Of a stretch of 64,000 bases of DNA, positions 26,171 through 30,040 are shown piece by piece. The stretch is taken from NCBI GenBank assembly GCA_027618835.1, contig JAQCHZ010000010.1, positions 1 through 64,000 of the forward strand, written 5' to 3'. Source of the stretch: Chloroflexota bacterium (lineage in GTDB: Bacteria; Chloroflexota; Dehalococcoidia; Lucifugimonadales; Lucifugimonadaceae). The notes under the pieces are model-generated. The model saw only the letters and a program-made list of their open reading frames with translations, made no database searches and was not told the origin of the DNA. The position numbers and the translations under genes were made by a program. Within the stretch, counting starts at the first letter, position 1, and every line of letters begins with the position of its first letter.

Positions 26171-27459
26171 TAGTCCCAGTCGAACTCCCAATTACCGATC
26201 AACACCGTGTCGCCCGATTCTAAGCCGGCAGTTTTAAGCGCTTTGGTAACTTTCAACTGGTCGAGACGTCGGTGAAACTGCAATCGAGCTTCGTGCGAGT
26301 CTAAGTTGCTGCCCTTAGCCAGACGGACCGCTTTGGCATGAACGATTCGTAGTTGGCCATCGGATTCTCGAACCACAACTTCTGTAGATTTTCTTACAAC
26401 CGGTCGAAGCACCGGGATCTCTTCTTCGGGGACTTCTGAAACCGGGGGCTCGTTCTCGTACGACGATCTTAGCAAGTGGAACATCGCCTGCTTTAGTTCG
26501 TCGAGACCATCGTAGGTCGCGGCCGATACAAAGAAAGTTTCGGAATGAAGTCCGTCGAAATCTTTGAGAGATTCTTTGATTTCATCGATCAAAACCGACA
26601 CTTCATCGAGGTCAAGTTTGTTTATCGCCAGAATCTGAGGCTTCTTTGCAAGCTCAGGATCAAACTGAGTAATCTCTGAGTTGATCGCCTTGATCCGACC
26701 CGGAACATCGTCTTCACTGCCGTCGACAACGTGAACAAGCACTCGCGTTCGTTGAACGTGCTTCAGAAATTCGTCACCTAATCCAACGCCTGAGTGAGCA
26801 CCTTCGATCAATCCAGGAATATCGACCGCAACAAACGCTTGCGTACCCGCCTCAACCACACCCAGCACCGGTTCAAGCGTAGTGAACGGGTAATCAGCTA
26901 CTTTAGGTCGAGCTGCGCTGATAGCGGTCAGTATGCTCGATTTGCCGGCGTTCGGCATACCGATCAGACCAACATCAGCAAGAAGCTTAAGATTCAGGCG
27001 AACTCGACGTATCTCACCATCGCCCCCAGCTTCAGCCAGAAGTGGTTCCTGATGAGTAGCTGTTACGAAGTGAGCATTGCCCCATCCACCACGACCACCT
27101 TCAGCGACAATCATCCGCTGTCCATGCTGACTCAAATCGCCTATCAGCTCTTTATCTTCAGCATCTTCCCAGAGCCAAACCTCAGTCCCTACCGGAACCG
27201 AGACTTCAACACTTTCACCTTGGGCACCATTTCGAACATGGCCATCCCCCTTGGTGCCATTTTTCGCAATGAAATGAGGTTGCCAGTGAAACTTAGTAAG
27301 GGTGTTGATCGCTTTATCAGCAACCAGAATTACGTCTCCGCCGTGACCACCGTCACCACCACCTGGTCCGCCTCGCGGAAGAAGTGCCTCTCGAATGAAA
27401 GCCACGAGTCCATGTCCACCGTTTCCGGCGCGCACTTCTATTACTGCAGAATCTAACAT
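26170..27459 (-). CDS. obgE: GTPase Obg/CgtA
   Basis: The 429-residue ribosome-associated GTPase has the glycine-rich Obg fold (AGNGGHGLVAFIRE, GGPGGGDGGHGG), the G domain (GMPNAGKSSILTAIS, DIPGLIEGAHSGVGLG, NKLDLDE) and the C-terminal OCT domain ending LIGNWEFDW. It assists 50S assembly. Its start codon overlaps a DnaA box at the edge of the oriC region, so initiation complexes and obgE transcription may interfere. Confidence 0.95.
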   Translation of the reverse strand: MLDSAVIEVRAGNGGHGLVAFIREALLPRGGPGGGDGGHGGDVILVADKAINTLTKFHWQPHFIAKNGTKGDGHVRNGAQGESVEVSVPVGTEVWLWEDAEDKELIGDLSQHGQRMIVAEGGRGGWGNAHFVTATHQEPLLAEAGGDGEIRRVRLNLKLLADVGLIGMPNAGKSSILTAISAARPKVADYPFTTLEPVLGVVEAGTQAFVAVDIPGLIEGAHSGVGLGDEFLKHVQRTRVLVHVVDGSEDDVPGRIKAINSEITQFDPELAKKPQILAINKLDLDEVSVLIDEIKESLKDFDGLHSETFFVSAATYDGLDELKQAMFHLLRSSYENEPPVSEVPEEEIPVLRPVVRKSTEVVVRESDGQLRIVHAKAVRLAKGSNLDSHEARLQFHRRLDQLKVTKALKTAGLESGDTVLIGNWEFDWD

Positions 27460-27783
27460 GTGTATAACCGGATCAATTAAATCTTCTATTTAGTTAATCT
27501 TCATATCAGTAAGCATTGTTGATATGTGAATAACACTCTTACTTTGAGTATAAAGCTACTGTTGAGAAACGGTTGGTAACGAAAGATGAACTCAGGAAAT
27601 TCTTTGTTGGTAACTAATCATCTGTTGAATAAGTTTTTGTAAATATAATTCATCACTTATTGGTCGAAAACCATTTCAGGATATTTGTCTACTTACCAAG
27701 AGAGTCGTAAGAATTTATTCACAAGATACACAGAAACTTATTCGACGATTTAGCAGTTATTCACAACGCAAATTCGATCTGAA
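27459..27783. other. oriC: probable chromosomal replication origin (oriC)
   Basis: The AT-rich region between obgE and dnaA holds four exact matches to the DnaA box TTATNCACA: 27459-27467 (minus), 27525-27533 (minus), 27715-27723 (plus) and 27757-27765 (plus). The two outer pairs point toward each other, and the two plus boxes are 42 bp apart, four helical turns. A weaker box, TTATTCGAC, is at 27738. Between them lies an A/T-rich stretch (27600-27720) suitable for unwinding. Together with dnaA at 28331 and gyrB nearby this strongly suggests oriC. Confidence 0.85.
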
Positions 27784-28330: not shown

Positions 28331-29731
28331 CTATTTAGTCGTGAGGTTGACCCTGCGAGCTCGAATTACGATGTCTCGAACTGCAGCCAGGTGTTGTCTC
28401 ACTGAACTATCGGTTTCCATCAATTGCTCGAAGCGTTTTTGGGCATATAAAACTGTCGAGTGATCCTTACCGCCGAGGGCTGCACCGACTCGTGCGGAAG
28501 TCAGATGAGCATCTTCTCTCAGCATGTACATCGCCATCCGACGTGCCTCAGCGGTTGCCTTGTCTCGTCGTTTGCCGGTAATGAGGTCGATAGTTACACC
28601 GCTGAATTCAGATATTGATTTCAATATTTCATCGACGGATGCAACGTCTTTTGTCGTTTCAGCCAGAAGGCTCTTCAACGCTTGATCCGCGAGTTCAGTG
28701 GTAACCGGACTTCCAATCAGCTGCGAATAGGCTATAACTCGGTTGAGTGCGCCTTCCAGTTCGCGAACGTTCTGGTGAGCACGTTGAGCGATCTGATCCA
28801 GAACAGCTGGTTCGAGATGTTGAGCCTTACTCTGTAATATCGCGTACCGAGTTTCGTAATCGGGCGGCTGTATATCTACCTCGAGCCCGCCAGCGAGGCG
28901 CGACTGGATACGTTCTTGAAGCAAGCTCTTGCTTGCAGGCTCATCGCCGGTAATGACGATCTGCTTGCCAGCCATGTGCAACTCGTTGAACGTATGGAAG
29001 AAGCCTTCCTGAGTTTGCGGCTTTGAAGCGATGAACTGAATATCGTCAACAAGCAACACGTCGGCACTTCGGTAGCTCTCGCGGAACTTATTCGCTGTTC
29101 CATCGCGAATAGCGCTGATGTACTCGTTGGTGAATCGTTCACTGCTTACATACATCACTTTTAGGCCACGCAAAACCAGCATGTTCCCAATGGCATGTAG
29201 TAGATGAGTCTTGCCAAGCCCTACTTCTGAATAGATATATAGAGGGTTGTAGACGCTTCCTGGCGACTCTGCAACTTTGGCCGCGGCAGCCTGCGCAAGA
29301 CGGTTCGAGGGGCCAACGACGAAGGTCTCAAAATTGAATGATGGCTTGAGCGAGTAAGACTTAGCGTAGTCGATTTTCCCAGCGGATTCGTTTGGTTCAG
29401 ATTCCGACGTTTCAGACCGCTCTGAAACGTCGGAATCTGATAGCACTTCATGGTTTGAACCTTGGACCTTGAAGTGTACTTCAAGCTTTCGTCCAGCGAC
29501 TCGTGAAACGGTTCTGAGGATCGTTCCCGATAGACGCTTCTCGAGCATCTCGGCAGCAAAAGGAGACGGCGTGGAAATCGTGAGGATGTCATCAGATAAA
29601 CCTACCGCTGAAGTAGGTTTTAACCACGTTTCGTAGTTGGGTCTGGGAATTTCAAGTTGGAGCTGTCCCAGAGCTGCTGACCAGATTTGCCGTGCGTTAT
29701 CCGTGGTCAAACCCTCACTAATTTTGGACAC
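28331..29731 (-). CDS. dnaA: chromosomal replication initiator protein DnaA
   Basis: The 466-residue initiator begins with GTG at 29729-29731. Domain I (residues 10-85) includes the family's WLKP motif. Domain II (about 90-130) is an acidic Ser/Glu linker encoded by a perfect palindrome. The AAA+ domain has Walker A EVGLGKTHLL at 169-178, Walker B VLLVDDIQF, and the C-terminal domain has the signature KDHSTVLYAQKRFE for DnaA-box binding. It unwinds oriC, which lies 550 bp downstream. No dnaN follows in this direction. Confidence 0.97.
   Translation of the reverse strand: MSKISEGLTTDNARQIWSAALGQLQLEIPRPNYETWLKPTSAVGLSDDILTISTPSPFAAEMLEKRLSGTILRTVSRVAGRKLEVHFKVQGSNHEVLSDSDVSERSETSESEPNESAGKIDYAKSYSLKPSFNFETFVVGPSNRLAQAAAAKVAESPGSVYNPLYIYSEVGLGKTHLLHAIGNMLVLRGLKVMYVSSERFTNEYISAIRDGTANKFRESYRSADVLLVDDIQFIASKPQTQEGFFHTFNELHMAGKQIVITGDEPASKSLLQERIQSRLAGGLEVDIQPPDYETRYAILQSKAQHLEPAVLDQIAQRAHQNVRELEGALNRVIAYSQLIGSPVTTELADQALKSLLAETTKDVASVDEILKSISEFSGVTIDLITGKRRDKATAEARRMAMYMLREDAHLTSARVGAALGGKDHSTVLYAQKRFEQLMETDSSVRQHLAAVRDIVIRARRVNLTTK
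29397..29440. repeat. perfect 20-bp inverted repeat inside dnaA
   Basis: Arms at 29397-29416 and 29421-29440 are exact reverse complements separated by only CCGC. The segment encodes the Ser/Asp/Glu-rich domain II linker of DnaA. In mRNA it would form a very stable hairpin. Linker sequence is poorly conserved, so a palindrome could be tolerated here without harm. Confidence 0.9.
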
Positions 29732-29739
29732 AAGTGTCC
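29726..29739 (-). promoter_or_regulatory. palindrome GGACAC-AA-GTGTCC over the dnaA start codon
   Basis: A perfect 6-bp dyad with a 2-bp spacer covers the GTG start and the bases just before it. It could be an operator or control access of the ribosome. No classical Shine-Dalgarno sequence is obvious between it and the promoter. The rest of 29740-30040, between the divergent dnaA and fmt genes, shows no other clear signal. Confidence 0.4.
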
Positions 29740-30040
29740 CTGAGCCGGTAATGCTGGCTTGTAAAAAAATCGATCTAATATGTCTATGCCGTGATCAGCA
29801 TTTTCGGCAGCTGGACGTTGCCTGTGGCGATCCTGACCTGATGGCAACCGTACCATGCGCTAGGCTGGTGTATGCAACCCCTCCAATGGGTCAATTGGCT
29901 CGAATTCAGGACCAATTTCCCAGAAATTTTGTGACAACAATCAGGACCAAGTTTGAACGACCATTAAAATTAACATTTCTCCAACAATGCAACCCTCGAC
30001 CGGACTGGCGATTTCAGCGCACCGCGCCAGGCGCCAAGCT

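Follow-up and report, generated by a model that had tools for sequence, protein, structure and literature searches.

A perfect inverted repeat in the dnaA linker of a SAR202-related bacterium, probably the scar of a replication template switch, and a conserved leader upstream of the gene

The dnaA gene of a marine bacterium whose nearest named relatives are SAR202 bacteria, including Candidatus Lucifugimonas marina, carries a perfect 20-bp inverted repeat in the segment that encodes its domain II linker. Sequence comparison with related genomes indicates that this repeat is very probably the scar of a template switch that occurred during replication. The repeat is restricted to one species, the departure from the relatives is concentrated in one of its arms, and a sister species (G011) possesses a second, different repeat in the same linker. 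The locus is a clean natural case in bacteria: a single mutation event seems to have changed several residues in the flexible linker of an essential protein. The source genome, a 2.4 Mb assembly of 41 contigs that is 89% complete, contributed contig C21, and the whole stretch of 64,000 nucleotides analysed here is called the window. It was compared with 18 other genomes of the Ca. Lucifugimonas genus (n = 19 with the window). The coordinates of the features discussed below are collected in Table 1.

Table 1. Positions of the dnaA gene, its linker repeat and its leader within the window.
Feature	Position	Strand	Basis
dnaA ORF, 466 aa from the GTG of the ORF caller	28331..29731	-	ORF caller, TIGR00362 and Pfam
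3' arm (mRNA sense), encodes SETSESE, common to relatives, presumed template	29397..29416	-	2/20 differences from each of G014 and G011
Loop, 4 nt	29417..29420	-	Arm coordinates
5' arm (mRNA sense), encodes SDSDVSE, rewritten arm	29421..29440	-	8/20 differences from G014, 12/20 from G011
7-nt contiguous block, 5'-arm positions 6-12, every base different from G014 and G011, equal to the reverse complement of the matching 3'-arm block	29429..29435	-	
ACG, candidate true dnaA start	29702..29704	-	18/19 genus members; 8 nt after the GAGG Shine-Dalgarno-like motif
Second palindrome GGACAC-AA-GTGTCC over the GTG of the ORF caller; leader helix 5, one base out of register in this species	29726..29739	-	
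Helix 4 hairpin of the leader	29743..29759	-	Upstream alignment and covariation
Leader core, model R1	29777..29882	-	19/19 genus genomes, 0/81 others

The gene is recognised as dnaA by TIGR00362 with 457.5 bits, for a cut-off of 343.9. Pfam assigns residues 15-73 of its product to DnaA_N and residues 128-286 to the ATPase domain, and the repeat, which covers residues 98-112, falls between the two. An earlier note on this DNA had described a perfect palindrome of 20-bp arms around a 4-nt loop at 29397-29440, had placed it in a Ser/Asp/Glu linker of domain II and had judged its chance occurrence very improbable, and each of these points was confirmed. Indeed, the two arms of 20 nt are 100% complementary, with 4 nt between them, and encode the peptides SDSDVSE and SETSESE, the latter from the 3' arm that reads TCT GAA ACG TCG GAA TCT GA in the sense of the mRNA. 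In the 64-kb window no other perfect inverted repeat with a loop of up to 20 nt is as long, the runner-up reaching 13 bp. The maximum obtained in 20 runs of a first-order Markov simulation never exceeded 13 bp, and, calculated analytically, 9e-7 repeats with arms of 20 bp or more are expected per 64 kb. A perfect repeat of 20 bp is therefore far beyond chance.

REP and RPE are names given to types of dispersed palindromic elements. When the arm pattern was searched with three mismatches allowed, this locus alone was retrieved from its own genome, and homologues of the 3' arm were found in G014 and G011; an element of the REP or RPE type was rejected because similar copies are absent from the rest of the genome. 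Other inverted repeats were noticed on the way. A 13-bp perfect one with a 5-nt loop lies outside ORFs at 2470-2500 of the window. An AAACGAC...GTCGTTT repeat, perhaps a terminator or a small element, recurs mostly outside ORFs in four congeners (L117:8531-8567, L118:14362-14393, L119:4173-4204 and L125:14120-14156).

The dnaA sequences of the window and its 18 congeners were aligned, and linker length is equal in most species, so that the columns are comparable; those of L014, L015, L016 and L021, whose linkers differ in length, are less sure. None of the 18 congeners in this alignment has the palindrome. In a tree computed without the linker columns, the window is sister to the pair formed by G014 and G011 (support 100), which are themselves sisters (99). 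Compared with these nearest relatives, the length and frame of the linker are unchanged, and the differences are unevenly distributed: the 3' arm differs at 2/20 positions from either species, the 5' arm at 8/20 from G014 and 12/20 from G011, and the rest of the linker outside the arms at 15/91 from either. The loop differs from G014 at two of its four bases. Seven of the changed 5'-arm bases are contiguous, and this block now carries the reverse complement of the one opposite; it reads TTCCGAC in the window, where nine of the 18 congeners start with AAA. Residues 98-103 read SDSDVS in the window for SEKLVP in G014.

One arm homologous to that of the relatives, and the other rewritten in place to its reverse complement, is the pattern that fits the template-switch correction of an imperfect repeat, and it speaks for the proposal of template switching made in the earlier note. 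A perfect repeat (20/20) is present where the homologous columns of close relatives pair imperfectly, at 12/20 in G014, with matched ends and a mismatched middle, and at 8/20 in G011; among the 17 congeners other than G014 the range is 2-9/20. Moreover, the multibase change is concentrated in one arm and equals the reverse complement of the other, although in a perfect repeat every changed base is necessarily complementary to the other arm, which is thus no independent proof.

This pattern leads us to infer an ancestral state, one event, its strand and its copying mechanism. The ancestral linker would already have carried an imperfect inverted repeat, favoured by its Ser-Asp/Glu codons (TCAGA and TCTGA are reverse complements of each other). 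An ordinary substitution in the 3' arm would have come before the switch; this extra step is needed because in one base pair (5'-arm position 6 with 3'-arm position 15) both bases differ from those of G014 and G011. Of the nascent strands, that complementary to the mRNA would reach the 3' arm first, and would then have paired with its own copy of this arm, or with the sister strand, extended there and returned to the normal template. The 5' arm would thereby have become a reverse-complement copy of the 3' arm, with length and frame kept, and the linker would have tolerated the rewritten residues. A separate event of the same polarity would have produced the repeat of G011.

Could the palindrome result from assembly or amplification, as a chimera or a fold-back of the read library? 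The fragmented and incomplete state of the assembly leaves some room for this explanation, but frame, length and flanks match the relatives on both sides, when a fold-back chimera would be expected to continue in inverted orientation, and a comparable but different repeat occurs in the same linker of another assembly, that of G011. According to the earlier note, relatives with unrelated linkers would denounce an artefact; worded in this way the rule fails, since the linkers of the nearest relatives are homologous and differ mainly in one arm, an observation that favours mutation. We thus consider an artefact very unlikely.

Ordinary substitutions, or recombination with a divergent lineage, might also have given a Ser-Asp-rich 5' arm that mirrors the 3' arm by chance, in a linker that is fast-evolving and rich in Ser, Asp and Glu. 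The distant congener G017, whose linker has a different length, shows the 7-mer TTCCGAT, near-identical to that of the window, at the aligned columns. This near-match is likely a convergence of Ser-Asp codons, and the block is not unique. Chance is nonetheless not expected to give a perfect 20-bp repeat, the changes fall mainly on one arm, and an origin by such independent changes seems extremely unlikely.

A palindrome as old as the split from G014 should have received about 3.3 substitutions in its 40 arm bases on the window branch, and the probability of finding no mismatch would be about 0.04, in an approximate calculation that takes the linker rate and branches of equal length as given. 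For this reason the palindrome is probably younger than the G014 split, or has been corrected again since.

The earlier note also raised an mRNA hairpin controlling DnaA synthesis. Selection would then have built or would keep the pairing, and the hairpin would tune synthesis through ribosome pausing, RNase III cleavage or mRNA decay. Folding of 75-nt windows along dnaA in the 19 species, compared with protein-preserving shuffles, revealed a very stable stem (down to -37.9 kcal/mol, z -3.8), and the window and G011, where a second strong stem is present, stand out in the linker. At codon 100, z lies below -2 in six of the 19 species against codon-preserving shuffles, which suggests some pairing tendency beyond these two. 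Furthermore, translation of Caulobacter DnaA is regulated via its own early coding region, although the account of PMC8443254 makes the peptide responsible, rather than mRNA structure. Against a selected hairpin, the mean z of the linker (-0.87) is weaker than those of codons 175-180 (-1.2) and 250 (-1.1), with seven species below -2 at codon 180, so that, across species, other parts of dnaA are more structured than the linker. The pairing is kept in 0/18 congeners, the stem of G011 is in another register, and the change sits mainly in one arm instead of being spread as compensating pairs. The check proposed earlier, conservation of the palindrome with compensating changes in close relatives, thus gave a negative answer, and control of DnaA synthesis by a hairpin in the linker is not supported; we regard it as unlikely. 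A conserved cis-regulatory RNA at this place was likewise rejected on the covariation test, as no congener keeps the pairing. A perfect stem of 20 bp should all the same fold easily in the mRNA of the window, where it may have an effect.

The whole window was also searched with Rfam at the gathering score, and neither the linker palindrome nor the leader described below was matched. A permissive search returned sub-threshold matches of the perfect stem to four microRNA-precursor families and one plant U3 family, which were taken as chance. No tRNA or tmRNA was found in the window.

The second linker repeat, that of G011, is a perfect inverted repeat of 15 bp with an 8-nt loop, starting at codon 102. 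It covers the same codons as that of the window in another register, and no other species pairs at more than 10/15 there. Here too, more changes lie in the 5' arm, with five differences for two in the 3' arm when compared with G014, and six for three when compared with the window. A survey of 369,098 bases from the window and the 18 congeners, of which 320,156 belong to ORFs of 100 aa or more, yielded three ORF-embedded repeats with arms of at least 12 bp. Two are the linker repeats of the window and G011; the third, in a 122-aa ORF of G014, resembles intergenic repeats of G011, G012 and G018. Four ORF repeats, all with 12-bp arms, were found in 383,822 bases from 58 further loci, nearly all outside the genus (L050-L108 without L068); both surveys cover stretches centred on dnaA and their counts are not a genome-wide rate. 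That two related species each carry such a repeat in the dnaA linker suggests a hot spot there, presumably since mutually complementary Ser and acidic codons, of the TCAGA and TCTGA kind, would seed imperfect repeats.

Both events, in the window and in G011, imply a nascent strand complementary to the mRNA. The strand bias of template switching in E. coli is described in PMC8794818 as being towards the leading strand. Four of the five matches to TTWTNCACA in the window, a DnaA-box-like motif, are clustered at 27459-27765, in an 870-bp gap without long ORFs located between obgE and the 3' end of dnaA, and form a candidate oriC. Such a cluster 3' of dnaA would make the mRNA-complementary nascent strand the leading one; GC skew shows no switch at this candidate and hints at the opposite.

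Upstream of dnaA, a leader of about 165 nt (29718-29882 of the window, minus strand) is conserved in 17 aligned congeners, the upstream alignment being made without G005, and its pairing is kept by covariation in these relatives. With strict filters, a model of the leader core finds one copy in each of the 19 genomes of the genus, and none in 81 other genomes of the family and order. Two-sided changes affect 14 of the 29 pairs, and two-sided cells amount to 43, compared with 15.7 in shuffles and at most nine in slid versions of the structure, values that are favoured by the derivation of this structure from the alignment on which it was tested. Some pairs are often broken (columns 65/73 in 11/18, 151/157 in 9/17), and one of five measures, that of further pair types, is not above the shuffles (89/500). 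On the dnaA sense strand G-U pairs (43) outnumber A-C pairs (21), which favours an RNA read in the direction of dnaA. Gathering and permissive Rfam searches gave no family for the leader. A consistent switch in which the leader sequesters the Shine-Dalgarno-like motif was not found, as the predicted pairing varies among the 18 species folded (mean unpaired probability 0.00-0.71).

A further palindrome had been reported to cover the start codon. It does exist, over the GTG chosen by the ORF caller, and corresponds to the last stem (helix 5) of the covarying leader, but this GTG is probably not the start. It is not conserved in frame, some species having a TTG nearby or nothing. An ACG that lies 27 nt downstream may be the true start: G006, which has GTA there, is the exception within the genus, the ACG is one of three invariant columns among 111 fourfold-degenerate ones, and the GAGG motif precedes it in all 19 genomes. 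In G017, the stretch from the upstream in-frame stop, 48 nt away, to the ACG contains no ATG, GTG or TTG, and initiation at the following start downstream would cut into domain I. Alternatives to the ACG (GTG, TTG, CTG) are not conserved within the genus, a TTG 6 nt upstream of it being found in 10/19 genomes. The leader, or a constraint at the DNA level, could instead conserve the bases of the ACG. Outside the genus, 21 named loci were inspected (L050-L067, L069-L071), and 18 of them have a CTG behind a purine-rich motif near the corresponding place, 8 codons ahead of the I/L/V-W that is conserved in domain I; in seven of these 18, no ATG, GTG or TTG is found between the upstream in-frame stop and the CTG. 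This CTG is likely the dnaA start in the 18 loci.

Taken as a whole, it is possible, though we would stop short of calling it probable, that a genus-specific leader RNA controls dnaA translation from a conserved ACG (a CTG in most sister genera) instead of an ATG, GTG or TTG, the synthesis of the initiator being throttled by a poor start codon that follows the structured leader, and that the linker palindromes, slightly further downstream, are replication-switch scars at a hot spot. The leader would matter more than the linker palindrome. If dnaA is read from an ACG behind a conserved RNA structure, automatic calls of the dnaA start would be wrong in this group, and translational control of replication initiation could be studied in a cultured relative, Ca. 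Lucifugimonas marina. As to the palindromes, template-switch events that go unrecognised resemble clusters of adaptive substitutions or selected RNA hairpins.

For structured dnaA leaders and unusual dnaA starts, the only clearly relevant match in the open-licence PMC literature was the 5'UTR of Caulobacter dnaA (PMC8443254). As described there, it is like the SAR202 leader in having about 155 nt, several stems, related sequences in its own family and a stem by the start region, and the same paper mentions a CUG codon close to the start. Position and size are comparable, by description only, and no sequence relation is claimed. For the linker palindrome the mechanism is already known and the instance is new. 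Template switching between the arms of inverted repeats is documented by quasipalindrome assays in E. coli (PMC7202029), and as a maker of hairpins in PMC8794818. The E. coli mutation, as presented in PMC7202029, similarly makes an imperfect repeat perfect by copying one arm from the other, but was followed with genetic reporters in lacZ, whereas here it is deduced from species comparison in a natural dnaA. In yeast, the homogenisation of arms in coding genes outlined in PMC8604942 shares with our case a multinucleotide change in one arm, amino-acid replacements and repeated events at one site; the arms there have 7-16 bp, in contrast to 20 bp here, in a bacterium, and the two linker events differ in register. 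Finally, perfect inverted repeats in protein-coding sequence, with template switching suggested as their origin, are described for nematomorph mitochondrial genes (PMC6649704). The repeats given there number 110 in four genomes, occupy conserved regions and have arms of up to 142 bp, whereas the window has a single one in a variable linker.
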